Positions 3,563 to 51,769 of a stretch of 64,000 nt of DNA are shown here, piece by piece. Position 1 is the first letter of the stretch, and each line of letters begins with the position of its first letter. The notes below the pieces were generated by a model. The model worked only from the letters and a program-made list of their open reading frames with translations, did not search any database and was not told where the DNA came from. The translations under genes were made by a program, and so were the position numbers. The stretch comes from Isoetes taiwanensis. Lineage: Eukaryota > Streptophyta > Lycopodiopsida > Isoetales > Isoetaceae. The stretch spans positions 11,606,680 through 11,670,679 of the forward strand of contig JAJEKV010000023.1 in assembly GCA_021234155.1 (NCBI GenBank), in the 5' to 3' direction.

Positions 3563-3574
3563 CTCCCCCCCACC
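3563..3574 (-). promoter_or_regulatory. Polypurine tract of the gypsy element
   Basis: On the minus strand the sequence reads GGTGGGGGGGAG directly before the LTR start TGTTAG. A purine run in this position primes plus-strand DNA synthesis in LTR retrotransposons, and it fixes the element's orientation as minus. Confidence 0.85.
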
Positions 3575-3917
3575 AAACGACACTCAGGGAGGAGAAAAGG
3601 AGGAACTGTTTCAGATGGCGGGAACCCAGCAGTCTGAAATTCATCCTGGCGGGTATGAGGATGGGGCCCATTATGATAGTTCCCAATGAGATCCTGGCGT
3701 GCCTGGAGAGCTTCAGGAGTGTGGAGACCGATGGCTGGATGAGCGTCAATGAGAAACCCAGAGTGCACCATTTCTTCAAGTGCACGGTGTGCTTCAGCAG
3801 GTATAAACTGGCATTCCATGAGAAGGCAGGTCTGGAGGCCAAAGGTTCTGATGCTTATATTCGGGTTGCAATAATAGATAGGACGCTGTCTGTTTAGAGA
3901 ACTCAGCAGAAAGCACT

Positions 3918-10400: not shown

Positions 10401-10917
10401 TCGGAAAAATGGTCAAGTCTTTGGATGCGATTGCAAGGAGCCAGGTAAGGGTCTAGGAGGAGAGCGGCCCGCGGCGGTCCTCGATCCGAGTCATCTCTCC
10501 CAAGGATCAACATATTACAGGAAGGATGAAAGAGGCGGACTTCGCAGTGGAGCCCGAACATGATAGATATTCCCGGCTTCTTCCGAATCGGTTCCGAGAG
10601 AGAGAGAAGGTTCGGCATGTTCAACGAGATGATCTTGCCGGTTTCCAAATCCATGGTAGCATTGAAATGATCATCGGTAATGACGAAATGGGTCCGCGGG
10701 CCCAAAGAATATTTTTGCCCCGACGGAGAAAAGGTCTGCCGACCAACATTTCATAATCACCGAGATCTTCGCCGGCTTTCCAAACACCAAATTCCAGAGG
10801 GAATCTGAGTTCGCCTATATTGATGTGAAGGAGGGGTGTGACGCCTTGAGGGCGCGTGATATGACCATTGGCCAACTTGATGTCATAAGGGGCACGGTAA
10901 AGTTGTTTGATGCCCAA
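7486..10917 (-). pseudogene. pol: Ty3/gypsy pol polyprotein (PR-RT-RH-IN), broken
   Basis: Read downward from 10,917. The protease tail has YEMLVGRPFLRRG (about 10,740-10,790). The linker has KHIFAWSYKDLRG (about 10,100). The RT frame, 9,941-8,991, has FMDGFSGYNQI and the catalytic box FQDD at about 9,566. It runs into RNase H (FFVDHRALLYLI, about 8,940). The integrase frame, 8,726-8,115, shows the HHCC zinc finger (H-x-GGGH.., then CTCDVCQR) and the first core Asp in GMDFVGP. The C-terminal integrase part (8.0-7.49 kb) has FKLVYG and GDLVLLYDSRY. Function: cleavage, reverse transcription and integration of the element. Several frame changes and stops separate the domains, so it cannot make a full polyprotein. 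No chromodomain is present. Confidence 0.8.
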
Positions 10918-13252: not shown

Positions 13253-14481
13253 GGTAAAAGAAGGAAGAAAAAGAAAATCAGACCCGACAGCGGCGACAGT
13301 GTTTGCGGTTGTCGTCTGCCAAATCGAGGCGAAAATCTGCAAAAAGCAGATTAATAAGAATATAGCTCGGGGAATTATGCTAGCTTAGCGAAGAAAGCTA
13401 AGCAAATGTGGAAAGAGGAAAAGTAGTGCAAGAGATGTGCTACATGAAAGAATACCCATGAGAAAACATGGGAAGAAAGGACATGGCAGAATTGTCGTGA
13501 AGGAACATGGCAACAGGGTTGTCGGAAGAAGAACCCCATAGAAGAAAAAATACCTATGGTGGAAATATGAAGATAACGTGACAAAGTAAAGGCCTCAATT
13601 AAAGAAGGGGTCAAGTCACGAAGATTTGAAGGAGAAAAGATGTCGAGAAAACGGGAGAAAAACCCTTGAGAAGATTATGGAAGCGGAATTACCCATGAAA
13701 GAATAGAGAAAAGTGTCATGGCCCTAGGGGAAAAAGCCAGAAAAGAAATTGCAATGGTGACGTGGGCGACTATGAGCAATGAAGGTTGAAGAAGATATCT
13801 AAGGAATAAAAGTGCCAGCCGAGATTGGGAAATAAAAACCCATTGAAAAGTAAAAAGATACTAAGGAGATGGCAAAGAAAAAAATCATGGCAAGGGGCAA
13901 GGTCGAATTTGTGAACCATAGAGAAAAAAAAAATAAGCAGAAATTGTTAACACAAGATAATTGTTAACAAAAGGGAAAATATTTGGGGCTAAGAATTCTG
14001 AACGGACGGAGCTCTTGGCCGGATTGATGGTGCAAAAAGACATGGCTTTCCAGATTGATTCGCCCAGCATATCGCCAATACAGGAAGGACTCCGCTTGAG
14101 ACTTCTGCAGACCGGCTGTTACAGATCAAAAGCATTTAGACTGAAGCCGAATTGATCGAGGAAAACAGAGAAGATTGTTCTAAGAATAGCGTGAAAGGAA
14201 AAGGGAAAAAATCGAATTGAACTTGTTGGAAGCAGCCATTCCGGAATCCTTAAGACTATTTGGTCAAGAGTTGTTGGAGCAGCCGAATTGTTGTTGAAGA
14301 AACACAAAAGGTGAAGCCAGCAATCCGCAGATTCACAGAGGATTAGGCCGGAATTGAAGCATCTCCATAAAATTCCCGCCGATCTTCTGCTGCAGAATGC
14401 GAAACAGAGAAAGAGAAATAATAAAAATTAGGAAATACGAAGCACTTAAAGAAAGAAGGAAGTGCACCACTTCAAATACAT

Positions 14482-14550
14482 GATGGGTAGCCGAGTTGGG
14501 CAAGACCTATGCCTCCTAATGCATAGGTGTCGGGTTCAATTCCATTCCAC
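14482..14550 (+). other. tRNA-like segment with Pol III A and B boxes
   Basis: TAGCCGAGTTGG (14,488-14,499) matches the A-box consensus TRGCNNAGYNGG exactly, and GGTTCAATTCC (14,533-14,543) matches the B box. Between them CCTATGC..GCATAGG forms an anticodon-arm-like hairpin. The T-arm is only partly paired and the acceptor stem does not close, so this is not a functional tRNA. It is most likely a tRNA-derived SINE head or a tRNA relic. Confidence 0.45.
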
Positions 14551-14599
14551 GACCTTTTGCTAAAGGAGTGAACCACAAAATCGCATCTTTTTTGCGTGC

Positions 14600-14841
14600 T
14601 GACGTGGCAAAGATGAGTTGGCATATGAGAGACCCAAGGTGGCATATTTGATGATGTGGCGTGACCAGTTGCATGTTTGATGACGTGGCGAGTGCCACGA
14701 GGGCGATCCGCCTAGGTGGCGAATACGAAATCCAAGGGATGCGATGACGTGGCGCTGACGTGGCGAAGGGGTAGATTGGACTATAAATATGTGAACCACG
14801 GTTGGGGTTTTTCCAACCATAACCAAAGCAAGTGCAATAAA
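14600..14841 (+). promoter_or_regulatory. Promoter-like block: TGACGTGGC array, TATA box, AATAAA
   Basis: TGACGTGGC, a bZIP/ABRE-type core, occurs at 14,600, 14,681, 14,745 and 14,756, with a variant TGATGTGGC at 14,652. TATAAATA follows at 14,782-14,789 and AATAAA at 14,836-14,841. This is the layout of a plant LTR U3-R or of a stress-responsive promoter, but on the strand opposite to the element's genes. It may be a solo LTR of another element or an antisense promoter. ABRE-like arrays are known to bind ABA/stress bZIP factors; activity here is inferred. Confidence 0.45.
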
Positions 14842-14921
14842 GTTTGATTTTCCGTTCTAGTTCTCTTGGTTCTCCTTCACAGCGCTACCTTTTCCTCGGG
14901 TTGCGAGCGGGGCTCGACAGC

Positions 14922-15499
14922 GGTCTGGGTTCGGGAACTCCTGCAAGACAGCCCTCTGAGAGGACCCTTGGTTCAAACAGGAGAATCCGGTAGCTGTGTC
15001 ACGCGGGATTTGCAAAAGGAACAAAGGAAAAGGGAAAGAGAGAGAACAAAAGAAAAACAATAAGAACACAATGATGAGAACGAAACTATTTGATATCAAT
15101 GATGATACATGAGCTCTCGCAATAGAGAGAAAACAGAATGGAGATAAGACCAAAAACTCATCTAGCCTATGAATGCTAGCTCTACTCATATATATAGTAC
15201 AATGGCCTTTGGCCCAATATAGATACTCTGTCAGATCTCGGTGCCCCGACTCCTGGAAGGAGGCCTGATTTGCAGGAATGTTGACGGTGCCTCTTGAGAT
15301 GCCTGAAATCACGCTGACGCTGATGGTGACGGCCCGTCACTTGTCTGTTCTCTGCCTCTTCTTTGGCGCGGGCGTGGTCTGCTGCTTGGTCTTATGCGGG
15401 GCTTTTGACGACTGACCTGGACCTGACTGTGGCTCCTTGTTCTTGACCTGGTCCTCCGTGTGCATGAATAGTCCTGTACCAGGACGTACAGGACTAACA
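14922..15499 (-). repeat. LTR (5' LTR of the minus-strand gypsy element)
   Basis: Direct-repeat partner of 2,987-3,562 in the same orientation. The element's transcript would start in this copy and run toward lower coordinates. The outer end (..CTAACA at 15,499) is identical to the other copy; the inner end diverges just before GGTCTGGG. Confidence 0.8.
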
Positions 15500-31704: not shown

Positions 31705-32293
31705 AGACCTGTATTTTGTTAGCCAAGTGAAATCTCCCCGTGGGTCTCTAAAAGCTTCGCAATTTTGTTAACAATATAGCGGTAAAGCTTCGCTTCTCGT
31801 GACATTCCCTTGCCATTTTAGATACAGCACGTCATGAAGACGTGTGCATACAGTAACCCATAGCATTTTCTGATTGTCCATCATGTCTTATGCAGGTTCC
31901 ATGGTCTTCCAGTACCCTAACTCTGTGCCGTGATGCTTACTTGCTTATATTACTAGATCCCAAGAAAGTCAGGAGCATTGTGTCTTATGGTGCTTGTAAA
32001 AGTGATGAGATATGTCGCTATAGTGGAGTCCTCCTGGTATAGTCGGGGCTATATCCATATGAATGGCCCAACAATTATAACTCTGAATTATTCGCCATGC
32101 AGACAGGTATATTTGCATGCACTTACATTTGAACAATTGTTTTAGATTAAAACATGAATGCAATGGATCTTTCTCCAAACAATGTTTATTGTTTTTTGCA
32201 GGCCTAATAACAGAGACTAAACACTTGATGTGGGGATCCTGGCATCTGAGTAGGACCGCTCATTAAAATAAATGAATTCCTGACTCTTACAAG
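31705..32293. other. Host DNA left of the chromovirus
   Basis: AT-rich sequence with intron-like features, such as a pyrimidine tract ending TTATGCAG near 31,895, and a short open frame after it. It may belong to the AARE gene whose relics continue on the far side of the element, but I could not match an exon. The last five bases (ACAAG, 32,289-32,293) are the left TSD of the chromovirus. Confidence 0.35.
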
Positions 32294-33962
32294 TGTGACG
32301 TTCCACGTATTTATACGGTACACGTAACGTATTTATACGGTACACCTATAAATATACTGACACGTCACCCGATAAAGGTACGCCACCATGGGGTATTGTA
32401 ACCTAGGGGATTGACTTAAAAGGGATTAAATTAGCTATGCTAATTTAATCATTAAAGATAATAGCCTATAATCTAGGGATTAATATTAAATGGGATAATT
32501 AGGCCAATAAATGCTTTGGGAAGGCGCCACCTGGCCTAATTCGATTGGCCAACATGGGGACTTCCAAATTGGGCTGTCAACCTGATCCCTATTGCTAATT
32601 GACTCCTAAAATTCGTCCAAGAAGGAGCAGGAGCTGAAACAAACCCCTCACCACGTTGAGCCACCACCGGACCAAGTACTTTTACTGTGTAGTCAAGTTT
32701 GAACCACCAAGCCCTAGGAGATGGAAGCACCAATTGGTAATGGATCCAGCCAGAATACAGGTGGGTGGCTAGTATAGGCTGATATTCTAGGGTAGCGCCC
32801 CTTTTGGGCACTTGTGTGTTGTCTTGTATGTTTCTCTGTGCTTTTATTCGTAGGAACTAACCCTTGGTTGAAAAGGTAAGTTCTCTTTATATTTTGATTC
32901 GGGTTTTGCTCTCAAAGGATGAATTGATAGTTCTTTGCTTAGTTAGCACTCCCCAGAGATGGGGATTACGGAGGGTAGAGACCTCTGAGCCCATATATAT
33001 ATGGTAGTATGCTCCTAGATAAAGCCCTGTATTATCCCAATAGTGCGGCCTGTGCCCAAGAGCCCACCGGGTCATAGATGCTATGGTACTGGCTTAGCAC
33101 CAGACAAGGAACACAGTGGTGAAGTGGAGGTGGGGTCTTGCACGAACATAAAAGGCTCCTGGGACTCCTATAGCGAGCTAGACCTGATAGCCGGTCACGT
33201 AGAGGGCCGGGTATGGGTCTGACACTCCCTGGGTGGGAAGGTGTGACCCGTATGGGGCACCTTGCACTTTGAGTAGAATTAGGGTGAGTAAGTCGGGTAC
33301 GGATGCGGGGGTCGCTGATGCGGCACGTATTCTCTAGCTCGCCCATGGAGCCACTGTGATTCTGGAAGGGGACGCTTCCCTGACCTGCCTCATCGGACCG
33401 GGGCTTCATGAACCCTGGAGTGGGCTCGCCAGGTGATGCCTCGAGCCTGCGTCTCCTAAGGCTATAGCGACGCCATAGCGTGAATTGACCCATCCGCAAA
33501 GTGTGCAATGGGAGGGGCGGATGGAGTGGACAACCCTAGCCAATGTTCTATGCCGCCAACGCCATGTCAAGATTCTCGGCTCGCTGATCTCTTGAGGCCT
33601 AGCCGTCCCGTCGATCCTCACCGGAGTCTGAACCGGGGTAGAACCATGGGGTTGGGGTGTTTTCTTAGGTTTAGATGCATATTCTTTGCCGCTGGTATTT
33701 GATGGATATGCCACCCTTCGTGGGTGGTTATTTATATGTGAATTATGCCGTGTGCTAACCCTTGTATTCACGCCACGACGTAGGAGCCCCATTGAAGGCG
33801 TGGGCCGAATGACCCCTTCGTGTCCTTCTTCCGGGCATCGTATTATGGATGGCCCGAAATAGACGGAGGGCCCTGGCCATGGCGAGTTGGTCGCCATGGG
33901 AGGGGAAAGTCCTCAGATGTGTAATGCAATCGAGGGTCGTGATATGTTCGAGGGAGCGTCCA
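32294..33962 (+). repeat. 5' LTR of the chromovirus
   Basis: Starts TGTGACGTTCC and ends AGCGTCCA. It opens with two copies of ACGTATTTATACGGTACAC (32,305 and 32,327), also present in the 3' LTR. Open frames inside it on either strand are not genes. Confidence 0.9.
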
Positions 33963-33965
33963 CGC

Positions 33966-33980
33966 TGGTATCGAGCATGG
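33966..33980 (+). promoter_or_regulatory. Primer-binding site, initiator tRNA-Met type
   Basis: TGGTATCGAGCATGG lies four bases after the 5' LTR and resembles the usual plant PBS TGGTATCAGAGC with one base missing. The 3' end of initiator tRNA-Met would prime minus-strand DNA synthesis here. Confidence 0.7.
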
Positions 33981-34111
33981 TTTTGGGAAGCCAAACTATT
34001 GCACTGGCCACATACTAACTCGATAGATCGTTAGCTAGAGAGTGAGGATTTTGGAGTAGTATGAGTTTTTGGGTGGTGTAATGGATGCCGTCATGCTTGC
34101 TTTAGCGTGGT

Positions 34112-34340
34112 CTAATTGTAATTAGAAGGGGTGTACCCGGTACCCAACCCTAACCCTAAGTGGCGGGCAGGGGGTACCCGGGTGTCGTTGGGCGCCTCAG
34201 AGAAACCTCGGGGTAGGGGTGCCCGCCACCTCGAGAAAAAAAAAAAAAAAAAAAGTGGCGGGGGGTACCCCGGACGCCGGCCGGCCCATGAAGACGGCCG
34301 AGGTAGGGGTGCCCGCCACCTCAAAAAGCGCGCCCGTCAT
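34112..34340. repeat. GC-rich block with a repeated GGGTGCCCGCCACCTC unit
   Basis: GTAGGGGTGCCCGCCACCTC occurs near 34,213 and again near 34,303, separated by a 20-base A run and a GC-rich linker. CCCTAACCCTAA at 34,147 is telomere-like but only two units long. The block lies in the element's leader and is non-coding. Confidence 0.6.
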
Positions 34341-34546
34341 TTTTTTTTCATTAAAAGTTTTTTAGGGTTAAAATTTTAAAAGTGACTTTTTCTTTCACTT
34401 TTCTTAACCACCTAGCGCCCTCTTGAGCTCCCGGCCGGGTCAGCCATAGTCACGGAACTAGAAGCTTCCCTCCGCCATAGCCAAACCTCGCCCCTTACCT
34501 TTCTCCCCCTACCGCCCAAATACCACCTAGCGCCTACTCTATAAGG

Positions 34547-35219
34547 ATGGAGGCACCCAAGCAAGTTTATACGCGTAAGCCTCGCTATTCCAAAACCCCC
34601 ATAGAGTTTTTAATGGCTGAATTGCTACCACAACGAGACCCAGCGCCTTGACGACGCGTTTAAGACCTAAGAAATACTAGAGTATTTCGCGAAGCGCTTC
34701 ACTAAGGGGTCGAATCCCATACCCGCTTTTTTGCTATAATGAGCTTTGTGTTCAAGCTCAACGCTATTCGGGAAACCCGCATAGTAGTGGAACAGAAGAT
34801 GGCGCCCGGTATGCCCGTTCTTTCCGCCCGCCAAATAGGGATGAACAAACAGAGGAGGAGGCCTTACAAATGCAGGCCCGTAAACGGTTTGCAAATGGCT
34901 CGTGAGGCGGATCTGCGCAGTGGTTGGCATTGGATGATCCGGCCCGTGATACCGCTACCTAGGAAATGGCATGTGCCTTTTTTGATGGGGAGCCTATACT
35001 CTTCCATCGTTCTCATATGAAGAGGAGACCAATCGTATCCTTTGGGAAGCGTGATCACCCTCAGTATTTCACGATCACTTCCAAATGGCCGTTGAACGAC
35101 ATGCAAGCTAGTCCCCCACGCTACTTCATAGAGCTTACAAGAAGAACGGAGATCAATAGCCAAAGAGAAGCAAGCGAGAGGAGCAAGCCACACCGGGCGC
35201 AGCACGTAAGGCAACACAG
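34547..35219 (+). pseudogene. Upstream part of the H3-like reading frame, broken
   Basis: An ATG at 34,547 opens a 34-codon basic frame (MEAPKQVYTRKPRYSKTPIE) ending in TGA at 34,649. Further frames downstream (34,739-35,020 with QKMAPGMPVLSARQIG; 34,966-35,223 with HMKRRPIVSFGKRDHPQYF) look protein-like and run into the coiled-coil and H3 region. They could be one gene broken by frameshifts and stops. I do not recognise the family; the composition is basic. Confidence 0.35.
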
Positions 35220-35896
35220 TTGACGGAGGAGGCTGCCAAGCTTCGTGAGGATACTATCCATCAGCAGCAGGTAGAACAAGAGCAAAATCTGAAAAGAATG
35301 CAGGACGAAGCAGAGCAGAGAGCAAGAGAGGCAACCGAAGCCGTGATGGAGCGACTGAGGAAGGAAGAGGAAGAAAGGCATCGGCAAGAGCAACCACCTG
35401 CAGAAGCCCGTATTCCTCGCCGAAGACAAAAGAAAACACCCCAAAGATCTGGTGCTCAGTATAAGGACCAGCTTAGAGCTCGGGGAGGAATCGCCAAGGC
35501 TGCAGGGGATAACCGGCGGGATAATATCATCCGTAAAGCCCGGCATCCTGGAACAGCAGGGAAGACTCTACCCGGAGCTGCACCCCAACCTAGGAGGAGG
35601 CATCGTTACAAACCCGGTACCGCGCGGCACTTCGAGAGATAAGGAAGTACCGTAAATCCATCGAAGTTTCACGTTTTAAAACTTCCTTTCCAAATGCCCG
35701 GTCCGAAATTGCCCAAGAATTTAAGACGGACCTTCGTTTTCAAACTCATGCCATTCTAGCACTTCAGGAGGCGGCCGAGGCTTACTTGGTGGCCCTCTTT
35801 GGCGATGCAAACCTATGTGCCATCCATGCCAAGCGAGTAACCATCATGACAAAAGACCTACAGTTAGCACGCCGGATCCGTGGGGAACGGTCATAA
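35220..35896 (+). pseudogene. Histone H3-fold protein with coiled-coil N-terminal region, carried by the chromovirus
   Basis: The first frame (from 35,220, TEEAAKLRED) is a Glu/Gln/Arg coiled coil, then a basic tail (ARIPRRRQKKTPQ, IIRKARHPGTAGK) reaching the H3 hallmark HRYKPGT at 35,601. Two extra bases at 35,637-35,638 shift the frame. From 35,639 it continues [62 protein letters not shown] and stops TAA at 35,894-35,896. After the shift this aligns with histone H3 without gaps from the alpha-N helix to the C-terminus. Loop 1 has canonical H3 length, not the longer loop typical of CENH3. The start of alpha-1 (KTSFPNARS) is changed. Non-coding AT-rich DNA with A runs follows (about 35,990-36,042), which could be a captured mRNA 3' end. 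H3 packages DNA in nucleosomes; its role here is unknown. Confidence 0.85.
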
Positions 35897-36156
35897 TTAT
35901 GTACATCACAATTTTGTATCTATGTAAATCGGTATATATATATATTAATACAAAACTGTTTTGACTTCTTATTTTGAATTGTGAATTTTCCTGAAATTAA
36001 AAAAAAAATAATAATAAAATAATAATAACTGGAAAAAAAAAAAGATGATGAGTCAAGCCAACGCCGCGTGCCCAAAGAAGTTAAATACTCGATTCATTTT
36101 TAGGGTTTCATCATTTCTTACTCCTGTTTCCTTCTTCCTCCCATCTTCCACCTGCA

Positions 36157-36480
36157 GTGATGGACTACGCTGGCCGCCTAGCATGGTACATGGGAGGCGA
36201 GCAATGGGATCCCCAGGTTCCTTACCCTCTCTTGGACCCTATGCTACAGAGTTCAGTCGACCTCATCGACAATATGCGCGCCCACCCTGACTATGCGACC
36301 TTTGTAGAGTTCTATGATGAGGAAATATTGCCTGAAGCGGAATTCTTTGGGGAACCGCCCCAACCTTATCTTCACAGAGATATTGTGGAGCATATGTTGG
36401 GAGATGATCGCCACAGCTATGATATCCTTAAGGGCATCATCGGCGTGCTAAGCACGCCCCATTATCGATTGTGGCTCTAA
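36157..36480 (+). pseudogene. Uncharacterised acidic ORF in the chromovirus leader
   Basis: A clean frame starts MDYAGRLAWYMGGEQWD (ATG at 36,160, after a pyrimidine-rich leader ending CCACCTGCAG) and runs to a TAA at 36,478. It is acidic, with many Asp, Glu, Tyr and Pro (FVEFYDEEILPEAEFF). Continuing frames with YVDGMRHRFRA lie at 36,520-36,570 after further stops, suggesting the original protein was longer. No family is recognised. It follows the H3-like cistron by 260 bp on the same strand. Confidence 0.4.
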
Positions 36481-36861
36481 TGGGCTATACTTTGAAGCCC
36501 GGTTGCCCTTGCTCTTATTATGGACAGGTATGTAGATGGTATGCGACACCGCTTTAGAGCAAGCTAAGGCCCCACTTCCTCCATTCGAGGAGGACGAAAG
36601 CGGATAAACTTTGCTGATTTCAGACGATGGAAGGAGTTAGCTAAAGGGAGGCCTTTACCTCGTAGTAAGGGCCAAGCACTTGTGGGATTGAGTTCGCTTG
36701 CTACCATTAAGATTGGGGATCGATTACTTGTCTGGAAGCGACATTCAATGGGCCTATCGAAGATATCGCAAATAAGGGTAAGCAGAGGACCGCCACCTTC
36801 TTTATGAGCTGGCCAATATTGTCGTGGTCAAGATGATTTCATTGATTACTCTCCCCTAATT

Positions 36862-37562
36862 ATGCGCCGAGATACATCACCGCTCAACTATCAACCTCTC
36901 GATGTTGAGCCTATCAGCACCCCCTCTTGTCCTTGCGCCGCCAATGATTCGGGTACCCCATCTTCGGTTCTGAATCGGCTTTCCAGTTACTGGGGGCCAC
37001 ACGTGCCCAACATCAACGACGCCGTCGTCAAGCCGGAGGACGACCCAACCATGGAGGATTTATGTGATGAGAGTCGGTATGCTCGGGAAGAGAAGGATTT
37101 TGCCATGGAGGAGGAGCTGCCCCAAACTTGAGTCCGAAGTTGGCCTCTTCAACCCATCCGATGGTTCGGGGGTTGAAATGCCATATTACTTCGATTCTTC
37201 CCCGCCGGCTTTCACAAGCGCATGTGTTCTCTTCTTTGCTAAGGCAATTGCCCCCGAGGCGCAGGCGGTCAGTATGGGCATTGAGGGCACTTTCCACCAC
37301 AGCGGGCCACAAGAAATTAGCTCCTAACCTTGAGCAGATCATCCTAGTGAACCGTGATCTTGCCATTGCAGTGTTTGACCATGAGATTGGTTCTTGGATG
37401 AACATGAGTCTGCTGGTTGCGGCGCCATTGGCTACAAATGTTCCTCCAGAAATAGCTTCATCAGCTGCCTCATCAGTTAATCCTAGCGTGTTACTCCTAC
37501 AGCATCGACCAGAGCCCCAGTTTGGTACTCAAACTCAGGATGTTGACGGATCGACCTTTTAG
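36862..37562 (+). pseudogene. Uncharacterised ORF remnants in the chromovirus leader
   Basis: Overlapping frames 36,862-37,131 (MRRDTSPLNYQPLDVEPIS), 37,064-37,327 (MPYYFDSSPPAFTSACVLFF) and 37,128-37,562 (LEQIILVNRDLAIAVFDHEI, stop TAG at 37,560) look like pieces of one protein broken by frameshifts. No domain is recognised. About 240 bp of AT-rich, intron-like DNA separates it from the next frame. Confidence 0.35.
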
Positions 37563-37811
37563 TTTTAGATTTCATTGAGTCATTGTATGAAATTTTGTTA
37601 ATTTTGATTGGCATTACCTCTAGTGGGCCAACACCAAAATCTATGTACTGTTTTCAATTTTATATATATTCAGGATATCTTCTTACGTTTCTTGCACTGT
37701 TGAAAACCACTTCATTGTTTTCTCCTTTCAATGATTAAGTATTTTCCTTAAAGCTCCAGTGGAAGGAAATTGTTTTCAATGTATATATAATTATTCCTGT
37801 CGTCTTGCAGA

Positions 37812-38274
37812 AGAAACACTTGAGGAATACCAGGACAGGATCACCGATCTGATAAGAATGGATGAACAGGGACCTCCTGAACAGGACTATGGAGAACGGT
37901 ACAACGAGTATCCTGAACGGGAAGTTGACGATGACATAGCGGAGCTTAGGGTTCCGGAACAACCTTATGATCCTGACAAGGGCATGGAAGTAGTTACTCT
38001 TCTTCGAGAACGTGCTTACGATGATCTGAGATGGACTCTTTCCCGTACTTGGGATTATTGGAATATGACCCCACATCAAGCTTTTGATGATGCTAATGAT
38101 CGTCTCTGGCAAATCTTCTACGCACTGCGAAGGCTCTTCAACCTCCTGATTATTAGCCCCACTTGGGATTATCAACCCGTTATTATCCAGGCTTGGGCAC
38201 GCTACAAGCTCGTCGAGCCGTATGAGAGTGTGCGCTTATGTCGCCATGTATCCCTGTATCGCAAAAACCCTTAA
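37812..38274 (+). pseudogene. Uncharacterised acidic ORF or exon before gag
   Basis: A frame opening directly after an acceptor-like sequence (CTGTCGTCTTGCAG at 37,811) reads ETLEEYQDRITDLIRMDEQ, then an acidic stretch, then Trp/Arg-rich helices (RTWDYWNMTPHQAFDDAND, FYALRRLFNLL) and stops at 38,272-38,274. It may be the last exon of the preceding cistron. The tail after it resembles a 3' UTR. No family is recognised. Confidence 0.4.
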
Positions 38275-38526
38275 GCCACAATTTCCAGTTTTGTGTGTTT
38301 CTATGCTTCGCCATGGCTAGGAAATGGCTTGTATCAGGCCTCTTTGTGTATTATATAACTATAAGTTGATAACTGTGTTCTATATAAACTTCTTTGATGT
38401 AACCGTTATCTCGCCTGTAAATTGAATCTTCCGTCCTTTTTCGTGTTCACTTTGTGTTACTTGATATTACTCAGAATGACTTTGTTATAACACTTACTGT
38501 TATCGTACTCTTTCTTATATCATCGT

Positions 38527-39660
38527 ATGTTTAATATAGACGGTGCACGCAATGCCGCCTGGCAGACACCCTCAAACGCCGGTCGGTTAACACCCGAACA
38601 AGAATTGATGCTGATGAAAAGACAGTTAGGCGAATTACAGGCCTACGTCTTGCATGCTAACCCACCACAGCATGTACAACAGGATGCACCGGAGTTACCT
38701 CCGTTACCACCTAGTCCACCTACACAGCAGCCGTCCCCACCACGAACTAGCCCTGTACCTGTGCGAAAGAGGTCCCACTCTAAACGCCGACGGAGCTCCT
38801 CTAGAGACAAGCCACCTCTTCAAAGTCTGCCACTTCACCGGCCATCCGCATCATCAAATCATCCTGGGGCCATGCAAAGCCCGAGATAAGGAGTACCGCA
38901 AGACAGGTTTGATACACCATAACTAGCATATGGAAGAATAGGAAATTGGCCCACTTTGATGGGAAATCTAGAGGCGGCTTGAATGCCGAATCCGGCCGGA
39001 CGAAATGAAGGAATTCGGCAGTCCTATGGCATGACAGAGAAGGATACGGAAAGGTTGCCACCACAAACCTTTACCGGAGCTGCCCGTATTTGGTGGAAGG
39101 GCTATGCGCCGAGCCAAACATCCGGACGAGAGTAGATGCAACTTCAGAAAAGTTTGCCAAGGCTTTCAAATCGCATTATGTGCCTCGTGCACATAAATGC
39201 CGCCAGATCCGCACTTTCTACAAAGTTGGAGCGTAAGAGTATGTCCGCATCTGTGCCTACACGGATGAGTTCATGCTTTGACCTGTATGTACCGGTATGA
39301 ATGAGAAAAGAGCAAAGGAGGGCTATATTGAGGGTTTGGCACCATCGATCAAAGCGGATGGTTAAGGCTATCGACCAAATCGGGCTTCTGCGTGGCGAGG
39401 CTAAAGCATTGAGCCTCGAGGAGGACATACCAAGAAATCGATCCGCCGCCCCCGCTCCTTACTGCAGCCCACGCCCGTCCACACCTTACAAGCCCCCGCT
39501 CTCCAAGTCCGGGCCCTCTCGCCAAACTCTTACGGTTGGCCGCCAGAGAAGAAAGTCGCTTTTAACACGCCCATAAGCGTAACAATGCGGGTAAGGAAGT
39601 TCAAACCTCTTACAGTCCATTCCTAAAGAGGCGAGGAGAACAAATTGCCGGGGATAAGGC
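38527..39660 (+). pseudogene. gag: Chromovirus gag, frameshifted
   Basis: The N-terminal frame (38,527-38,889; RLTPEQELMLMKRQLGELQ, then a Pro-rich, Arg/Ser-rich arm) is followed, after frame changes, by gag-domain pieces in several frames: AHFDGKSRGGLNAE (about 38,950), TSEKFAKAFKSHYVPRAH (about 39,140) and EGYIEGLAPSIKAD (about 39,320). A degenerate knuckle-like CYSV..GRHFMH lies near 39,663. Gag forms the particle and binds RNA. Several frameshifts and stops break it. Confidence 0.6.
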
Positions 39661-39688
39661 ATGTTACAGTGTATGAGGCCGACACTTC

Positions 39689-42600
39689 ATGCACTTGCCC
39701 ATATGTTACCCAGACGCCTACCGGCCATGGCCGACCTTGATCGGGGCGATATTGAGTCAACATTACCTGCCGACGGGGCGCCCCGTACATTCACGGTCGT
39801 CTCATATCCTTGCAGCTATTGAAACTGGCAATGCTGAAAACCAGCCTTCTGTTATTTCTACCATAGGCCAAGTAGGCAGTAAGCCTTTCATAATTTTGAT
39901 GGATACGGGTAGTACACATAATTTTGCTTCTCCTAGAATGGCCCAGGTATTGCAGCTTGAAACGTTGAGATCCCACCAAAGCCGCCACGCTAGCCTGGCA
40001 AAGGTCAGCACACACATGGTCAGCATTAACTTTAAAATGCAGTTGCCAGGTGCACCAGTTGCATTGGGTGCCGAGCTAATGGACATTGGCAAATATGATC
40101 TCATTGTCGGGATGGAGTTTTTGGCAGCTGCAAAGGCCAATATAGACTGCGAGAAACGGGAGGTTACCTTCAACGCCGCTAACGGAGCTCGCGTAACTAT
40201 AAAAGGTGAACCATTCAACCCTATTATCCAGTCTATGTCCCTCAAGCAGTTAGATAAAGCTATACGCAAGGATAAGCTCCTTTGCATCATTAGACTTGCC
40301 TCTATTGAGTCGGATGTTAAGCAGAAGCAGATAATTGACACCTTGCCGGGAGGGATTGCTAACCTTCTCCGAGAATATAGTGATCTTTTTCCAGATGAGA
40401 TTCAGAAGCTTCCTCCTTTCAGAGGGGTCGAATGTGAGATCGCTCTAGAACCAGGTACTAAGCCTACTAGTAAGGCCCCGTACCGTATGAGTCCCCCAGA
40501 GTTGGCAGAGCTTAAGAAGCAACTTCAGGAGCTCCTAAACTTAGGTTTCATTCGGCCTAGTGTTTCGCCTTTTGGTGCCCCTATCCTTTTTGTTAAGAAA
40601 AAGGATGGCTCCTTAAGGATGTGTATTGATTATAGGCAGCTCAATAAGCATACCATCAAGAATCGATACGCTTTGCCTAGGGCAGATGATCTAATGGACC
40701 AGTTGCAAGGGGCCAAATATTTCTCAAAGATTGATTTACGCTCTGGCTACCATCAGATAAGAATAAAGGAGGAGGACATCCATAAATCTGCTTTTCGCAC
40801 GAGATATGGGCATTATGAGTTTACCGTTATGCCTTTTGGGTTAACTAATGCTCCTGCAACTTTCATGCGCTTGATGAATGATATCTTCCGCCAATACTTA
40901 GATGACTTTGTTGTTATTTTCTTTGACGACATCCTCATCTATAGTAAAACTTTGAAGGAGCATGAACAACATCTTAGGTTGGCCCTACAAAAGCTCAGAC
41001 GTCATCAGCTTTTTGCCAAGTTCTCCAAGTGCAAGTTTGCCACTCCCAAGGTGGATTACCTGGGACATATTATTTCAGCAGAGGGAATTGCTACGGATCC
41101 CGCAAAGATAGAAGCAGTAAGAGATTGGCCTATTCCGGGTAATGTCTCGGAGGTCCGAAGTTTCTTGGGACTAGCAGGATATTATCGGAAATTCGTTAAG
41201 GATTTTGCAACGATTGCCGCACCTCTTACTGATCTCACAAAACACGTGAAGGTGAAGGATTGGATGGAACATTGGAAAGCAAAAGTCCAGGTCGGGTTCC
41301 AGAAGCTTAAGGATGCTTTAACGTCTACACCAGTCCTCACATTGCCTGATCCTGAAAAGGATAAGCTAGTGGCAACCGATGCTAGTAAGATTGCTACCGG
41401 TGGAGTCCTAATGCAGGAAGGGAGAGTTATTGCATATGATTCAAAGAAGATGAACGACACGGAACAGCGATACCCTACTCATGACCAGGAATTGTTGGCA
41501 GTTGTCCGCGCTCTGCGTATTTGGAGACACTACCTTCTTGGTAGGAGATTTCAGTTAGATACGGATCATCAGAGTCTCCGTTATTTAACCACCCAGCCGA
41601 ATCTCAACCTCCGTCAGAGGAGATGGATGGAATTTTTGGAAGAATATGATTTTGAGATTATGTATAAGCCTGGGAAGCACAATGTCGTTGCGGATGCGTT
41701 GTCACGCCATCCTTTAGTAACCCGGACCCATTGTAACGCAATCTCCACACTCACTAGTGAGTTTGGGAAACAAATAGAGCAGACTTTGGCCACGGATCCC
41801 GAGTTCAGTGATGTTTGGGGGAGCTTGAGTAAGGAAGCCCGTACAGATAAAGAGCGGGAAACTTTTCGTTCATATAAGAAAGAAGGCCACTTGCTATATT
41901 ACAAGGATAAGTTATGTGTACCTCAGACTTCCGGAGTGCGTAAGTTAATCCTCCATGACACACATAACAGCCCTATAGCTGGACATGCAGGATTTATGAA
42001 GACCTATTTTAAAATCCGTTCTAGCTACTTTTGGCCTTCAATGAAGAAGGATATTGCTAGGTACATCAAGCAGTGTCAGGTATGTCCCGTGAGCACCAAA
42101 GGCGTAACAATTAAGGACTCGTGAGAATTGCAACCTTTGGATGTGCCCAACGCTAAGTGGGAAGTGATAACCATGGATTTCATTGTGGGCCTTCCACGTA
42201 CTCTTCGTGGGTATGATGCGCTAATGGTAGTGGTCGACAAATTGTCGAAAATGGCTCATTTCCTCCCATGTCGTACCACGGACACCGCCTTTGATACTGC
42301 TCTGCTTTTTGCAAAGGAGATCTTCAGGTTGCACGGAATGCCACGGGTTATTGTATCTGACAGGGATCCCAAATTTGTAAGTGCATTCTGGAAGGATTTC
42401 TTCACCACCATACGCACCAAGCTTGCTATGAGTACCGCATATCATCCTCGCACGGATGGTCGACGAGCGCACTAACCGTATAATAGAGGATATGCTACGC
42501 AGTTATGTGTGGAGTAAGCAATCCCAATGGGCTGACTATATTTATCTAGTAGAATTTGCCTATAACAGTATGAGACAGGAGTCTTCCAAAATGTCTCCTT

Positions 42601-43274
42601 TCATGATAAACTATGGTTATCAATGCCTTACTCCCACACATGGCACAACCCCCGTATCGAAAGTGGAAGTTTCTCAACAACTCCTCTTGGAGATGCAAGC
42701 TTTGGTCGACGAGGTGCGTGGTTACTTGCTAGGCGCACGCAAATCGTCAAAAAGTGTAGCAGATAAGCCTGTAACCCCACGAAGTCTTCCGGTGGGTGAA
42801 TCGGTTTGGCTTAAGATTAAGGTAAAACAAGCCAAGCTTAAGATTGGTAATTGCAAGAAGTTGGCACCCGGATGGGCTGGACCGCTCAAAATCAATGAAC
42901 GTATTGGGGAGCAAGCATATCGCTGGACTTGCCACCCCCGCTTAAAGATCCACAAGGTTTTTCATGTGAGTCTTCTAAAGCAAAGACACCCCCGATCCGT
43001 AGGAGGTTTTGGAAACCCCAACTCTCCCGAAATGACAGAGGAGCAGCTAGAAATAGTACCTGAAACTCTTCTTGATCGAGCTTATAAACAGACCAGGAGG
43101 ACTCAAATGCTACAATACTTGGTCAAGTGGAAACACTTGCCAGTGGAGGATGCCACGTGGGTGATGCAAACAGATCTTGAGAAGCATTATCCGGATTTCA
43201 TCTTGCCAATCTCAAGGCCGCAGACCATCAACGATGCTATCAACCCCGCCTCCCGGGTAAGCTTGAAGACTTGA
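39689..43274 (+). pseudogene. pol: Chromovirus pol: protease, RT, RNase H, integrase, chromodomain
   Basis: A clean 811-codon frame (39,689-42,124) carries protease ([12 protein letters not shown], Asp at residue 72), RT ([23 protein letters not shown] at 411-420), RNase H ([21 protein letters not shown]) and the integrase zinc finger (H..H, then CQVC). A TGA at 42,122 and a frame change near 42,465 interrupt the integrase core: Asp in TMDFIVGLP, Asp in IVSDRDPKF, Glu in ERTNRIIEDM in the next frame. The last frame (to 43,274) ends in a chromodomain (about 43,060-43,205): LLDRAYKQ, YLVKWKHLPVEDATWV, LEKHYPDFI. Pol copies and integrates the element, and the chromodomain is thought to guide it to marked chromatin. 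Two lesions would suffice to inactivate it. Confidence 0.9.
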
Positions 43275-43848
43275 TTCACGAGAACCAAAGAGGGGTAGAT
43301 GCATCGTAGTTAACAACGGTTACCGATGGTGGGATCACCTTCGTGTTCCTTAGGACGTGGTGTACTGTCAATGTGGACATGACCGCGAGCCGCTTGTAAA
43401 CCATGTACTCCCTAATGATAGGTTCCTTGTAGATAAGTTTTCTTTTATTTTCTTATAGGGGGTGGACCCTTCAACCACAATCTAATTATATTATTGATAT
43501 ATATATTTATATATTGACATGTGCAGGCCAGTGAGCAGTTCGTGACCTGCCCATGTATAGAGGGTTGCTGATGACCCAACTTTTCGGATTCGCTTGCTTT
43601 ACATGTCTTATTTTCGTCCTCTATGATGTTTTAAGAAAAAAATCGGACTTCGGTCCTTGAACTTCTTCTGATGATACGTTTGTTAAAGGCACCTTGGTGC
43701 TGACACTTTGTTATTTTCAACTTCAATGTATTACTGTTTGATATAATAAGTTATCTTCCTTTCTTAAGTATATTCTTCCTAATTCAGTTTTTGTTTAAGT
43801 AACTGTCTCTGATTAATTAACCCCAATGCTGAGGACAGCATTGTTTTT
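43275..43848 (+). other. Non-coding 3' region of the chromovirus
   Basis: AT-rich sequence between the pol stop and the polypurine tract, without a coding frame. It contains a TATATATATTTATATATTG stretch near 43,497. Confidence 0.6.
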
Positions 43849-43861
43849 AAGGGGGGGAGAA
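43849..43861 (+). promoter_or_regulatory. Polypurine tract of the chromovirus
   Basis: AAGGGGGGGAGAA directly precedes the 3' LTR start TGTGACG. It primes plus-strand DNA synthesis. Confidence 0.9.
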
Positions 43862-45517
43862 TGTGACGTTCCACGTATTTATACGGTACACGTAACGTAT
43901 TTATACGGTACACCTATAAATATACTGACACGTCACCCGATAAAGGTACGCCACCATGGGGTATTGTAACCTAGGGGATTGACTTAAAAGGGATTAAATT
44001 AGCTATGCTAATTTAATCATTAAAGATAATAGCCTATAATCTAGGGATTAATATTAAATGGGATAATTAGGCCAATAAATGCTTTGGGAAGGCGCCACCT
44101 GGCCTAATTCGATTGGCCAACATGGGGACTTCCAAATTGGGCTGTCAACCTGATCCCTATTGCTAATTGACTCCTAAAATTCGTCCAAGAAGGAGCAGGA
44201 GCTGAGCGCCAAACCCTGTCACGTTGAGCGCCACCAGACCAAGTACTTTTTACCTGTGTAGCTGAAGCTGAACCACCAAGACCTAGGAGATGGAAGCACC
44301 AATTGGTAATGGATCCAGCCAGAATACAGGTGGGTGGCTAGTATAGGCTGATATTCTAGGGTAGCGCCCCTTTTGGGCACTTGTGTGTTGTCTTGTATGT
44401 TTCTCTGTGCTTTTATTCGTAGGAACTAACCCTTGATTGAAAAGGTAAGTTCTCTTTATATTTTGATTCGGGTTTTGCTCTCAAAGGATGAATTGATAGT
44501 TCTTTGCTTAGTTAGCACTCCCGAGATGGGGGATTACGGGAGGGTAGAGACCTCTGAGCCCATATATATATGGTAGTATGCTCCTAGATAAAGCCCTGTA
44601 TTATCCCAATAGTGCGGCCTGTGCCCAAGAGCCCACCGGGTCATAGATGCTATGGTACTGGCTTAGCACCAGACAAGGAACACAGTGGTGAAGTGGAGGT
44701 GGGGTCTTGCACGAACATAAAAGGCTCCTGGGACTCCTATAGCGAGCTAGACCTCGATAGCCGGTCCGTGAGAGGGCGGGCATGGGTCCGACACTCCCCG
44801 GTGGGAAGGTGTGACCCGTATGGGGCACCTTGCACTTTGAGTAGAATTAGGGTGAGTAAGTCTGCACGGATGCGGGGTCGCCGATGCGGCACGTATTCTC
44901 TAGCTTCGCCCATGGAGCCACTGTGATTCGGAAGGGGACGCCACGACCTGCCTCATCGGACCCAGGGGCTTCATGAACCCCGAGGGGCTCGGCGGGGTGA
45001 TGCCTCGAGCTGCGTCTCCCAAGGCTATAGCGGCGCCATAGCGTGAATTGACCCATCCGCAAAGTGTGCACGTGAGGGGCGATGGAGTGGACAACCCTAG
45101 CCAATGTTCTATGCCTACCAACGCCATGTCAAGATTCTCATCACGATCTCTTGAGGCCTAGCCGTCGGTCGATCCTCACCGAGTCCGAACCGGGTAGAAC
45201 CATGGGGTTGGGGTGTTTTCTTAGGTTTAGATGCATATTCTTTGCCGTTGGTATTTGGATGGATATGCCACCCTTCGTGGTGGTTATTTATATGTGAATT
45301 ATGCTGTGTGCTAACCCTTGTATTCACGCTTCCGCGACGTAGGAGCCCCATTGAAGGCGTGGGCCGAATGACCCCTTCGTGTCCTTCTTCCGGGCATCGT
45401 ATTATGGATGGCCCGAAATAGACGGAGGGCCCTGCTCATGGCGAGTTGGTCGCCATGGGAGGGGAAAGTCCCCGTATGTGTACGACCGAGGGTCGTATAT
45501 GTTCAGGGAGCGTCACA
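43862..45517 (+). repeat. 3' LTR of the chromovirus
   Basis: Direct repeat of 32,294-33,962, starting TGTGACG and ending CGTCACA, so its ends are 7-bp inverted repeats. Differences from the 5' copy are scattered, with a cluster near 44,202-44,290. ACAAG follows as TSD. Confidence 0.9.
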
Positions 45518-45770
45518 ACAAGCTTCTGTGCTTTAGAGACTGCCAGATGAACTTTCTATCTCATTATACACTGGACATGTGATACCGAAGTGGTGCGCAT
45601 ATTCAGCTTCAGCCAAATGGTAATCCTAGTGATTGATCCTAGGTGTAGCCTCTGTTGATGAGCAAAGAATCTATAATTTCCTATAGCAAATTGTACTTTG
45701 AGCAGTAAATGAACATCTCTTATTTGTTTCCCATACAATGGGCATGTTGATTTAATTGGCAACTCTGTAG

Positions 45771-46943: not shown

Positions 46944-49900
46944 TCAACCATCTCCTTCATGCTCATCATTGAGCTCTAATGCAGTAGTATCAATAAGACG
47001 TCTGCGCCTGGGTACAACATGAACCACAATCCACCACCTTGGGTTAACAGGGTTTTCAGTAAAGAAAACCTGTTCAACTTGTTTAGGGTAAACAAATGGT
47101 TCGTTCATTTCTCCAAGAATCTGTGTTGAATCAATCTCGTAGAAACCCGAAGGATGTGATCTCACGGTCTTATTTCTGCCTCTATAAATAACTTTGAACC
47201 ACTTTGCCTTCAATATAGTTACATGAAATGAACGGAAGTCAACATCAATAATATTGGTGATTTGCCCAACATAATTAAGATCACCCATAACTGGTTGCCG
47301 ATCACGTTGACTAGCTTGGCTTTTTTGTTCAAATTGACAAGCAATTCCACAGTCATTTGTCAGACGACCTTTATCGACCTCTATAGTTCGAAGATGATTT
47401 CTATAAGCCCACATGGAATTGTGGAAACGAGCCTGCATTTTACAGGATATGAGAAAGCAAATCATATGTATGTAGTAAACATTACCAATAAATAGAAAGT
47501 TATACCTTCTTAACGCATCCAAGTGCTATATTGAAGTCATCCTTTGGAACATCCTCTCCATTATCTCGTGCATTTTCCATTGCTTCAAGCAACCAATCAC
47601 GAGTCATATCCTCAGGCAATTCTTCCAATGATTCTGGATATAGAACACGTTTTTTTGGCCATGATGTATGCTATTATGTGCAAAATCTTGCCCGGCCATC
47701 TACTTATCAAGACTATCGAGATTACGTATTACAAACTTATTTATTTCTTCAAACATTTCCTCGTTCAATTTTATGTTGCACTCCATGACCTTGCAAGACT
47801 TCTTCTGCTACTTCCTTATCTTCCTCACCATTCCAAATCTTTGGTGCATCTTTGTGTATTGAAATTGTGGCTTCACTTAAAAAGAACAATGTTTCATGAA
47901 GCAAGTGACCCTCGGTCATGGACCCCTCAGGCCTAGCCATTTGCCGGATGTATCCTTTCAAAACTTTCATGTACCGTTCTAAAAAAAACATCCACCGACT
48001 TGGAGCTGGTCCAAGAAGCCGGATTTCTTCTGGTAGATGAACCAATAAGTGTACTTGAAGGTCAAAAAAACTTGTAGGAAGCTATTTCTCCATCATGCAC
48101 AGAAGCTCAACTATCTCAACCTCCATTCTTGAAATGTCATCTAAGCTAATCTCTTTCATTGAGACCCATCTATACACAAAATTGGTAGTTGTTAACAACA
48201 AAATTGAAAACAAACTACTAACAAAGTTTTTAAACCATACCTTGCAAACTTTCCAAGTCGATATATAATGTCACGTATGTTACTTGTAAGACAATTCTCA
48301 ATTGCACATGGAAGAATGTGCTACAATGCAGCAAACACACATAATGAAGAAATATCCAACAAGATAATTAATACAAAATTAATACCTGTATAAATTTGTG
48401 CCAATCATGGGACTTTAACCCGCTAAGATCACCATCTTTTGTGAAGGCTTTACGTAGTGACGCACCATAGCCGGTAGGAGTGCGCATTTTGGATATAATA
48501 TTAGTCACTTGCAATGCCTCTGATTTACTTAGAACCCACGGTGCCTTGGGTAACATAATGGCTTTGCCCTCCTCTTCAATAGGCCATAAGGTACGCATTA
48601 TGTTACAATCTTGTAAGTCTCTTCTAACACTTAATTTCTCCCAATCCCCAGTCAAATGTCTCCAGAGTGATTGTCCAACATTTTTGAAGACATGCATAGG
48701 ATCGAGTAGGTGCACAAGTTTTAGTTCTGGCCAATATTCAAGCCGATAAAATATGGATAAACGTTTCATGCCTGGTGGTGGTATAACATCATCATCATTC
48801 GAAGCACCTTGTGATTCACGCGCCATAGTCCATGTTTCTAACCAATCCTTGGGTGTCCTACGCGTCGGTCGCTTAGTAGCATTTGATCCTCGCATAGGGT
48901 GATTGCATGGTAGGTACTTTTTGTGTCCGCGATATATTTGCTTGTTAAGGTGCTTGGAGCGATAACAACTCAAATCAGTTCCACATGATGGGCAACTATT
49001 CATTCCACTTGTTTGCAAACCTATATGTAGATAATGAGTTAGCATTTAATAAAAAGAGCATTGGTATTTAAAAAAGACATACCAGAAGCAACACTAAAAC
49101 CAGGATAATCATGTGTCGTGAAGCAACATATTGCATGTAATGTGAACTGATGTGGCGTCCTTACTATGTCGTACATTTGGATGCCTTGCCATAATATCTC
49201 TAATTCTTCTATGAGTGGTTCAATGTACACATCCATGTTCTTTACTTGATGCTTACCTGATAATAGTATGAAATAAATAAAACTTGTGAAAATGACATAT
49301 TGAAATGTAATAAGGACAAACCTGGAACAACAAGTGTCAACATCAAATGTCCGGCTTTAGTTGCCATCCATGGTGGAATATTGTAGTTGACCACAACTAT
49401 GGGCCACACACTATGTTTTGACGATAACGTTCCAAAAGGGAAAATTCCATCCATTCCAATAGCAAGGCGTAAATTGCGTGGTTCATCCTTGAATACCCTC
49501 CACTTATCTTCTATGTGTTTCATAGCTTCTCCATCCGCTGGTATTCTTATAATTCCATTACTTCGATGTGTCACATGGAAATCCATTAATGCAGACAAAG
49601 ATGGAGAACGAAACATGTATTGTAGACGTGGAATTATGGGCATGTGCCGCAAAACTTTTCTAGGAACATTTTTCTTCTTCATATCCATCTTATAGCGTGG
49701 CTCCTTGCATTTTGGACACTCATGTAATGTTGCATATGCATTCCGGTACAATACACAATCGTTTGGGCAGGCATGAATGCAATTATATTCCAACCCTAAT
49801 GCACGCAAAATTTCTCTTGCTTCTCTCCTTGTTTCGGGAAGACAATGACCACTAGGTAGTATCTTACTTAGCAAGCTACAAAATAAAATGCAGTCATCAC

Positions 49901-50558: not shown

Positions 50559-51769
50559 TCACAAAGTTTTTTCTTCACATAGCTTTCTTTTTGGCCTCCC
50601 TAGTGGAACAATGAGGGCACCCCCGTTTAGCTCCCTACGTCTTCGAGTTGGTATGGGTCGTTGAAAACTATAGTTAATAAAAATCTCATCCCCTGGTTTC
50701 AAATTTTTAATAGCGCAAATGCGCACATAAAATCTAGAATGGCCATTCATGTGACTGGAATCATGAATATCCGTCTCCTCAAAAATAGCATTAGACAACT
50801 CCAGATGACCATGTGAACTATTAATAAGACCAGCAATATTTCCATGCACACTAGGACGCCCATCTATGTAAATCTTGTCAGATGGTGCCACATCTTCTCC
50901 ATCTTCCTTCCTTTTTGCCAATTGGCACCAATTCTTTACTAGACCATAGGTCGACATGCTAGGCATGAATGATGCTAATCTTAACCAAACACCCCAACTA
51001 TATTCGGGCCCTCCATATGCCATTAGAGTCGTCGGATTTTCAAGATTTCCACATACACTTTCTAAAATATATAAACCCCTTCCTGCCTCCGAAATTTTTC
51101 TGGATGGCGCAATCATATATCGACGTCCCCAATAAATGAATTCTTCCAACATAAGTGCGAGTTGTCCTTCCCAACAACCAAATACTTTACGATTGAATGG
51201 AATAATTGCATTCCTAAGACAGTCTCGTTGACATGTGCAAGAGAATATTCATTTGTGCTAAACCAAGCCTTGATTGAAAGTGCTGCAGATGCTCCCCTTG
51301 TCCGTCCTCGTACTTGTGGAGTCTCTACTACCATTCTTTCTCTATCACTCGAGGAGGTACTCCGTTCACGACATTTACGAAGCCGAACCCTAGGTGGTGT
51401 AGATGAGGATGTGGAAGGAGATACGATTCGATGTTCACGTGCAATTTGTGTGTTCTTGTGCAACCCCCTCATGTACTGCAAAACTAAATAAATTCTAACA
51501 TGGCCAATAATTTGATTATAAAGAAAAGAGTTTGATACCTCATTGGCTTTTTTCCGCATCCGTCGTTCAGAAGAATCAGGGGGCGGTGCATCTTGACACC
51601 ACCCAAACCTTATTTTATGATCTTCTCTAACACTGTACTCCAACTTTTTCGAACCCCGACACGTGAGACACCAACAAGGCCATTTGGCCTGATATAATCT
51701 TTGGATGGGGTCGAGTCTTATATTCTCTGATCGTGCACCCCTACTTGAGTGTGAAGAGGAAGAGTCCAT
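50559..51769 (-). CDS. SET-domain protein carried by the CACTA element
   Basis: Exon 1 (51,769-51,539, 77 codons, MDSSSSHSSRGARSENI..) carries a Cys-rich patch (CWCLTCRGS) and joins in phase 0 across a 63-bp intron (donor GAG|GTATCA, acceptor TTTTGCAG) to exon 2 from 51,475 (YMRGLHKNTQIA, then Ser/Arg-rich). Near 51,208 one apparent missing base changes frame, after which RNAIIPFNRKVFGCWEG and MLEEFIYWGRR lead into the SET domain: SEAGRGLYI (GxG motif), KIYIDGRPSVHGNIAGLI, NAIFEE, FYVRICAIKNLKPGDEIFI and NYSF (catalytic-site Tyr), stop at 50,559. The usual NHxCxPN motif reads GNIAGLINSS and there is no post-SET Cys cluster. SET proteins methylate lysines, mainly on histones. SET is not part of the core TNP1/TNP2 set. 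The frameshift may mean a pseudogene or an unrecognised short intron. Confidence 0.75.

Follow-up and report, generated by a model that had tools for sequence, protein, structure and literature searches.

The window, meaning the whole 64,000-nt stretch analysed here (C1027:11606680-11670679, without any N), contains a decayed chromovirus whose element span is 32294-45517 and whose features are collected in Table 1. Its assignment to the Ty3/Gypsy chromoviruses rests on the LTRs, the target-site duplication and the primer-binding site (PBS, decayed in the window), and on the presence of gag and of protease, RT, RNase H and integrase in order, with a chromodomain at the integrase C-terminus. The two LTRs are 94.5% identical (K2P 0.049). 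The PBS-like stretch resembles a decayed initiator-Met site, and a clean PBS, TGGTATCAGAGCC, follows the 5' LTR in L068, a copy from a second clade of the family. In the C952 copy pol is a single 1261-codon frame that includes the chromodomain.

Table 1. Features of the H3-bearing chromovirus in the window (positions in the 64,000-nt stretch)
Feature	Position	Strand	Remarks
Target-site duplication ACAAG, 5' side	32289-32293		directly before 5' LTR
5' LTR (TGTGACG...)	32294..33962	+	blastn self-comparison, ends checked; 3' limit approximate
PBS-like TGGTATCGAGCATGG	33966..33980	+	starts TGGTATC; after 5' LTR
ORF1: broken N-domain/coil/linker/H3 gene	34547..35896	+	stop codon included; tblastn of intact P0121 onto window; ATG and stop checked
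N-terminal domain of ORF1	34547..35141	+	limits approximate; no known family
Coiled-coil segment of ORF1	35142..35420	+	limits approximate; long helix in AF2 model
Basic linker of ORF1	35421..35600	+	limits approximate; possibly rewritten H3 tail
Histone H3 fold with alpha-N	35601..35893	+	two frames in window
ORF2 (MDYAGRLAWYMGGEQWDPQVPYPLL...)	36091..37556	+	frame pieces in window; no Pfam match in the pieces tested
ORF3 (MEVVNILQERAF-type)	37777..38235	+	overlapping frame 37759-38271; no Pfam match in the pieces tested
gag	38515..39636	+	frame pieces in window; Ty3_capsid / Retrotrans_gag in C952 copy
pol: protease, RT, RNase H, integrase zinc finger	39689..42124	+	Pfam
pol C-terminal part: integrase C-terminus and type II chromodomain	42456..43274	+
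3' LTR (...CGTCACA)	43862..45517	+	blastn self-comparison, ends checked
Target-site duplication ACAAG, 3' side	45518-45522		directly after 3' LTR

ORF1 of the window copy is split into four frame pieces (34547-35893, by tblastn of the intact protein P0121). Its H3 frame at 35594-35893 scores 97.9 bits (E 6.6e-28) against Pfam Histone and has an H3.3 as its best solved relative (7ux9_E, E 2.4e-37). HRYKPGT is encoded in the frame before it, 35160-35639, and the reading frame breaks after this motif; the first-pass annotation had thus correctly recognised an H3 reading frame with a frame break inside a chromovirus. It had placed that frame between the PBS and gag, which is right as to location, but the gene is longer than described, and ORF2 and ORF3 intervene before gag. 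Likewise, the canonical tail is indeed replaced by a coiled coil and a basic linker, but a further N-terminal domain precedes both. A supposedly rewritten start of alpha-1, KTSFPNARS, did not survive comparison: 15 intact ORFs of the clade to which the window copy belongs (clade 1) read RKLPFQRLVR or RKLPFQRLIR, followed by EIAQ, at that place, so that KTSFPNARS is a frame slip of the window copy and a redesigned helix is ruled out, alpha-1 being canonical in intact copies. Loop 1 has canonical length, as annotated, with no insertion relative to H3 in either clade. CENH3 has a longer loop 1, and capture of a CENH3 gene is ruled out by the lack of such an insertion.

The chromodomain was compared at the positions of the aromatic cage (Y24, W45, Y48), of which W45 alone is retained in three integrase ends aligned by eye (window, C952 and C1018). 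With two of the three cage aromatics missing, it would by our reading be a plant type II rather than a type I, H3K9me-reading chromodomain, and classical reading of a methylated H3 tail is unlikely because only one cage aromatic is present. Plant chromoviruses with type II chromodomains are described as having the order gag-PR-RT-RH-INT-chromodomain and as lacking the first and third cage aromatics (PMC3350952, PMC6317226); the element shares both this gag-pol order and the incomplete cage, but differs in that gag is preceded by three additional ORFs, of which the first has H3 at its end.

Elsewhere in the window, a second Gypsy-type element lies at 2987-15499 (minus strand), with LTR-like repeats of about 578 bp that are 97% identical and a 612-codon ORF (5045-6883) downstream of pol that perhaps encodes a coiled coil. 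A weak SET-domain match at 50559-51152 (minus strand; 26.2 bits, cut-off 22.4), for which no solved relative was found by sequence, lies near CACTA-type (Transposase_21) pieces at 48368-49874.

Copies of the element and the site of the H3 ORF

Further copies were sought in the 1,658,258,908 bases (1110 contigs) of the genome; the numbers of first-look candidates given here are not copy numbers. A search with the H3 piece yielded the best 150 scored places of 7733 first-look candidates. With the 450-aa protein, 94 of 12089 first-look candidates were scored, giving 99 rows of 100% to 55% identity that correspond to 94 loci, every one with a match starting at residue 198 or earlier. Among these 94 listed loci the H3 fold is present in 88, partial in five and absent in one, where presence means a match reaching residue 426 or an adjacent match to the H3 piece (the latter in seven of the 88). 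The match is uninterrupted over at least 430 residues in 18 of the 99 listed rows, one of which (L047) ends early in the fetched DNA. The intact ORF L015:421-1770 encodes 450 residues with a Histone match at residues 340-446 (E 3.9e-39) and no other Pfam family above cut-off; P0121 scores 134.1 bits against Pfam Histone, and five more intact ORFs are 86-89% identical to that of L015. All of these copies were found through H3 or H3-ORF searches, and the sample therefore favours H3-bearing, little-decayed copies. Two H3 ORF copies on C1045 (27217670-27219004 and 27222274-27223608) face the same direction with their starts 4.6 kb apart.

A search with plant H3.3 returned, among the best 150 of 9052 places, 15 canonical host-type H3s (96-99% identity) and 135 places at 68-87%, which we take to be element copies or fragments, having fetched nine of them (L058-L066) as a check, while some of the rest are loci that had already been fetched. 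Among these 135 places we counted 44 that have an open frame of at least 400 codons with no stop inside the match. The four host H3 genes fetched are of two forms, A31/S87 (L055-L057) and T31/H87 (L054). The element ORF does not match a host H3 gene or a processed pseudogene of one, which would encode the 136-aa canonical protein, and the 15 listed canonical genes stand apart.

The first-pass annotation had raised the question of an intact H3 frame in further copies flanked by these LTRs, and such copies exist. Both LTRs, the H3 ORF, the gag region and pol occur in order in all five copies compared, namely the window copy and C928, C1018, C1034 and C952, the last four having been selected for an uninterrupted H3 ORF (LTR K2P 0.058-0.106). 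In the second clade, copy C1064 has a 5' LTR 79% identical to that of the window, followed by PBS, H3 ORF, ORF2, ORF3, gag and pol, its 3' LTR lying outside the fetched DNA. The downstream half of the C1025 copy (75% identical) keeps the same order, and in the C1078 copy (57%), which may be truncated, only the start of ORF2 follows the H3 ORF. Of the eight copies whose downstream flank was read, seven thus have the H3 ORF ahead of ORF2, ORF3, gag and pol. Open frames between the H3 ORF and gag are found in clade 2 as well (L067:160-1605, 482 codons, and L067:1818-2315).

Architecture and origin of the H3 fusion protein

The first ORF of this chromovirus family, upstream of gag, encodes a protein of 409-455 residues whose C-terminus is a near-canonical histone H3, preceded by 310-350 residues in which a domain without known family is followed by a coiled coil and then by a basic linker. 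Of the 15 intact clade-1 ORFs, 13 align with canonical H3 over 97 residues of the fold without a gap; in the other two, L048 is missing four residues and L041 stops one residue early. Residues R63, R69, R83, C110, H113 and D123, which we take to be core to H4, H3-H3' and DNA contact, are unchanged in the aligned element sequences of both clades. All 26 element folds used for the tree below carry E105G and T107A, which are seen in none of 211 reference cores; L051, whose alpha-1 lies out of frame and which was therefore excluded from trees and core counts, has R105 and A107. The 17 clade-1 cores all have H87 and L90, as in plant-type H3.3, and the six clade-2 ORFs compared have F87 and L90. Unlike H3.3 and CENH3, the element protein bears a foreign N-terminus, and unlike CENH3 it keeps the shorter loop 1.

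The N-domain has no Pfam family and no match at E<=0.001 among solved or viral structures, none of 73 pattern matches in viral contigs was confirmed, and its structural model is not confident (pLDDT 62.6, pTM 0.36). A search with the linker/coil piece gave 158 candidates of about 88-280 aa, below the length of a 450-aa relative, with none at E<=10. When the full ORF was compared with 5.8 billion proteins, the best 120 of 4514 matches covered the histone end only, with a best coverage of 44%, in a search that scored the 7933 candidates with most common words, among which H3 words dominate. An AF2 model of the whole ORF built from six sequences has a mean pLDDT of 46.9, with the coil forming a confident helix at about residues 205-280.

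The canonical tail ARTKQTARKS... was not found in the element ORF, although a K9-like ARKS occurs in some copies. Where H3 has QTARKST, the linker of some copies reads STARKSG or VARKSG, and all 11 ORFs compared contain KT[LIV]P with its K aligned to K27. Shufflings scoring as high as the K9 half numbered 20 (L045), 242 (L043), 329 (L046) and 2284 (L015) out of 5000, so that this half exceeds chance in L045, weakly in L043 and L046, and not in L015; the K27 half was not significant in any of these four. The linker may thus be a rewritten H3 tail, a reading for which shuffling gives weak evidence in the K9 half and none in the K27 half. We rejected the idea that a linker with ARKS docks on the chromodomain of the same element through the classical cage, since the cage is incomplete and ARKS is not in all copies.

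To place the element H3s, we built a maximum-likelihood tree from the 26 element folds (17 of clade 1, nine of clade 2), 53 distinct reference cores and the four host H3s over 80 columns. The element folds of both clades formed one group (100/97) against the 57 other H3s, as did clade 1 when run alone, in a tree whose bootstrap had not settled and whose references had been chosen by similarity to the element protein and required to have a near-canonical alpha-1 start. This grouping suits a single capture, from which we infer all the element H3s to descend. The captured gene probably came from the host lineage. Here the argument is drawn mainly from E77, because the tree does not place the host H3 genes next to the element group: E77 is found in all four host H3 genes fetched, in 15 of 17 clade-1 cores and in four of nine clade-2 cores (the other five having Q), compared with two of 211 reference cores.

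Two clades and selection on the H3 fold

The second clade comprises L058-L066, six of which have the whole ORF, with 409-420 residues from the first likely Met as against 450-455 in intact clade-1 ORFs. Over the 30 pairs formed by five clade-1 and six clade-2 ORFs, identity was 28-34% in the N-domain and 25-36% in the coil and linker, but 86-91% in the H3 fold, and the element folds are 85-90% identical to the four host H3s. Clade 2 has RKPHR[YF]RPGT and L60/I62, identical or close to canonical H3, whereas clade 1 has H[RH]YKPGT or HRFK, with F60/L62 in 16 of 17 cores; L049, the most diverged clade-1 member, retains L60/I62.

Among the 15 intact clade-1 ORFs, dN/dS was 0.022 in the fold (89 of 105 pairs usable), 0.088 in the N-domain, 0.154 in the coil (103 pairs) and 0.190 in the linker. 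Since six of these ORFs had been found by H3 similarity, which biases dN downward, the rates were recomputed on 11 copies picked by whole-ORF match, two of which carried a masked stop; pN/pS was then 0.075 in the fold, 0.205 in the N-domain, 0.376 in the coil and 0.321 in the linker. When L049, the most diverged copy of this set, is compared with the remaining ten, identity is 86-91% for the fold and 54-61% for the N-domain. Between the clades, one pair (C952 vs C1064) gave a saturated pS of 0.98 in the fold with a pN of 0.084. The preservation of the fold protein at saturated synonymous divergence argues for strong purifying selection, in agreement with the suggestion of the first-pass annotation that the fold had been selected, and we conclude from these substitution patterns that such selection maintained the H3 protein as the family divided into its clades. 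For the fold of the broken window copy, compared with C952 at 88 of 98 codons, the ratio is 0.257; pol ratios among the window and three H3-intact copies were 0.155-0.338, values that stem partly from decayed or frame-broken pol.

Divergence between the clades is uneven along the element. For C952 and C1064, pol has dS 0.75 and dN 0.035, and gag dS 1.08 and dN 0.101; protein identity between clades is 46% in ORF2, 76% in ORF3 and 93% in pol; and pS is saturated or nearly so (0.73-0.98) in ORF1, ORF2 and ORF3 when L063/L067 are compared with the C952 copy (L022, L037, L038). That the 5' ORFs are more diverged than pol at synonymous sites suggests that 5' modules and pol have been exchanged between element lineages.

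Possible roles of an element-encoded H3

The explanation we favour, with somewhat better than even confidence, is a maintained H3 fusion derived from one capture that acts on chromatin through H4 pairing or nucleosomes. The chances are about even that the H3 part forms pairs with H4 of the host, relies on the host's H3 chaperones and enters nucleosomes. Once deposited, the element protein would be a histone with a very long tail from which most normal modification sites are missing. Less certainly, the coil would multimerise it and the N-domain would bind an element or host factor. One outcome would be the tethering of element cDNA or integrase to chromatin, another the shielding of element copies from silencing that works through the ordinary H3 tail. 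A more specific proposal, which we advance tentatively and hold at slightly less than even, is that the fusion sits in nucleosomes on element cDNA, on element copies or at chosen host sites, where the N-domain marks them for integration or blocks silencing; in such self-made chromatin the loss of the ordinary H3 tail would be what prevents silencing. The conservation of the H3 protein suggests that this retrotransposon acts on chromatin for its own benefit, but constraint is also seen in gag and pol, so that the role of the H3 protein cannot be read from selection alone.

An unlikely but serious alternative is that the H3 fold serves as a handle, binding H3 chaperones or H4 (for example, at sites of H3 turnover) and tethering the integration complex without entering nucleosomes. 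A separate ORF bearing a coiled coil and a large N-domain would suit such a tether, as would the H3.3-like chaperone region of alpha-2 in clade 1, but clade 2 lacks the latter likeness at position 87, and conservation spans the entire fold rather than one surface. Less probable still, at perhaps one chance in eight, is a structural role in which the protein binds element cDNA or RNA in an H3-H4-like manner in the virus-like particle or cytoplasm. The position of a basic linker and histone fold upstream of gag would fit, and a nuclear role is itself conjectural; against it, the closeness of the fold to host H3 suits host partners, and we know of no case of H3 packaging nucleic acid without H4. 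It is very improbable that the element simply carries along, as passive cargo, an H3 gene captured from the host: there is ample documentation of plant LTR elements capturing host genes (PMC13317346), but intact ORFs persist in two clades and the fold protein is kept across saturated synonymous divergence. That the broken window copy is a private insertion of an H3 pseudogene, the reading that the first-pass annotation had offered as its own refutation, has a negligible probability, for the other copies whose flanks were examined have an H3 ORF at this site as well, and the H3 protein is under purifying selection.

The maintained fusion has partial parallels. Ogre-like elements also have an extra ORF between the 5' LTR and gag, and to our knowledge this upstream ORF contains no histone fold. 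Ty3/Gypsy elements of Phalaenopsis, 25 kb long, carry an ORF for an AlkB-type RNA demethylase, and of the 15 atypical domains reported across 121 angiosperm genomes the nine named in the part of the paper available include no histone (PMC9289625). As in those orchid elements, an LTR element here retains an extra host-type ORF, plausibly aimed at host surveillance, but this ORF encodes a histone rather than a dioxygenase. Single viral H3 genes are described in DNA viruses, for instance in Manila clam xenomavirus, a phycodnavirus; according to a review, single viral histones, host-like in fold, are mostly at 73-89% identity and are thought to enter host nucleosomes, and two phycodnavirus metagenome-assembled genomes encode H3-like proteins with about 170 N-terminal residues without known homology (PMC9145170). 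The quillwort element resembles these cases, so far as they are described there, in having one captured H3 with a host-like fold and an altered or longer N-terminus, but its H3 sits in a retroelement rather than a DNA virus. The string "retrotranspos" is absent from the text of that review (PMC9145170), and "histone" is absent from the main texts of the Isoetes genome paper (PMC8566536), a 2026 review of plant gene capture (PMC13317346), PMC6431247 and PMC5408684. In line with the first-pass annotation, which knew of no such element, no retroelement encoding a core histone was found in the open-access literature searched, so that absence in print is likely, not proven.

If our reading is correct, this would be the first retroelement-encoded core histone, and retroelements would join DNA viruses as carriers of "viral histones". 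Few proteins are as firmly bound to the host as the core histones, and a maintained H3 of its own would show that an element can act on the nucleosome itself and not only on its marks. Integration targeting, or evasion of silencing based on the H3 tail, would become directly testable in the lycophytes, a plant lineage in which little chromatin work has been done.
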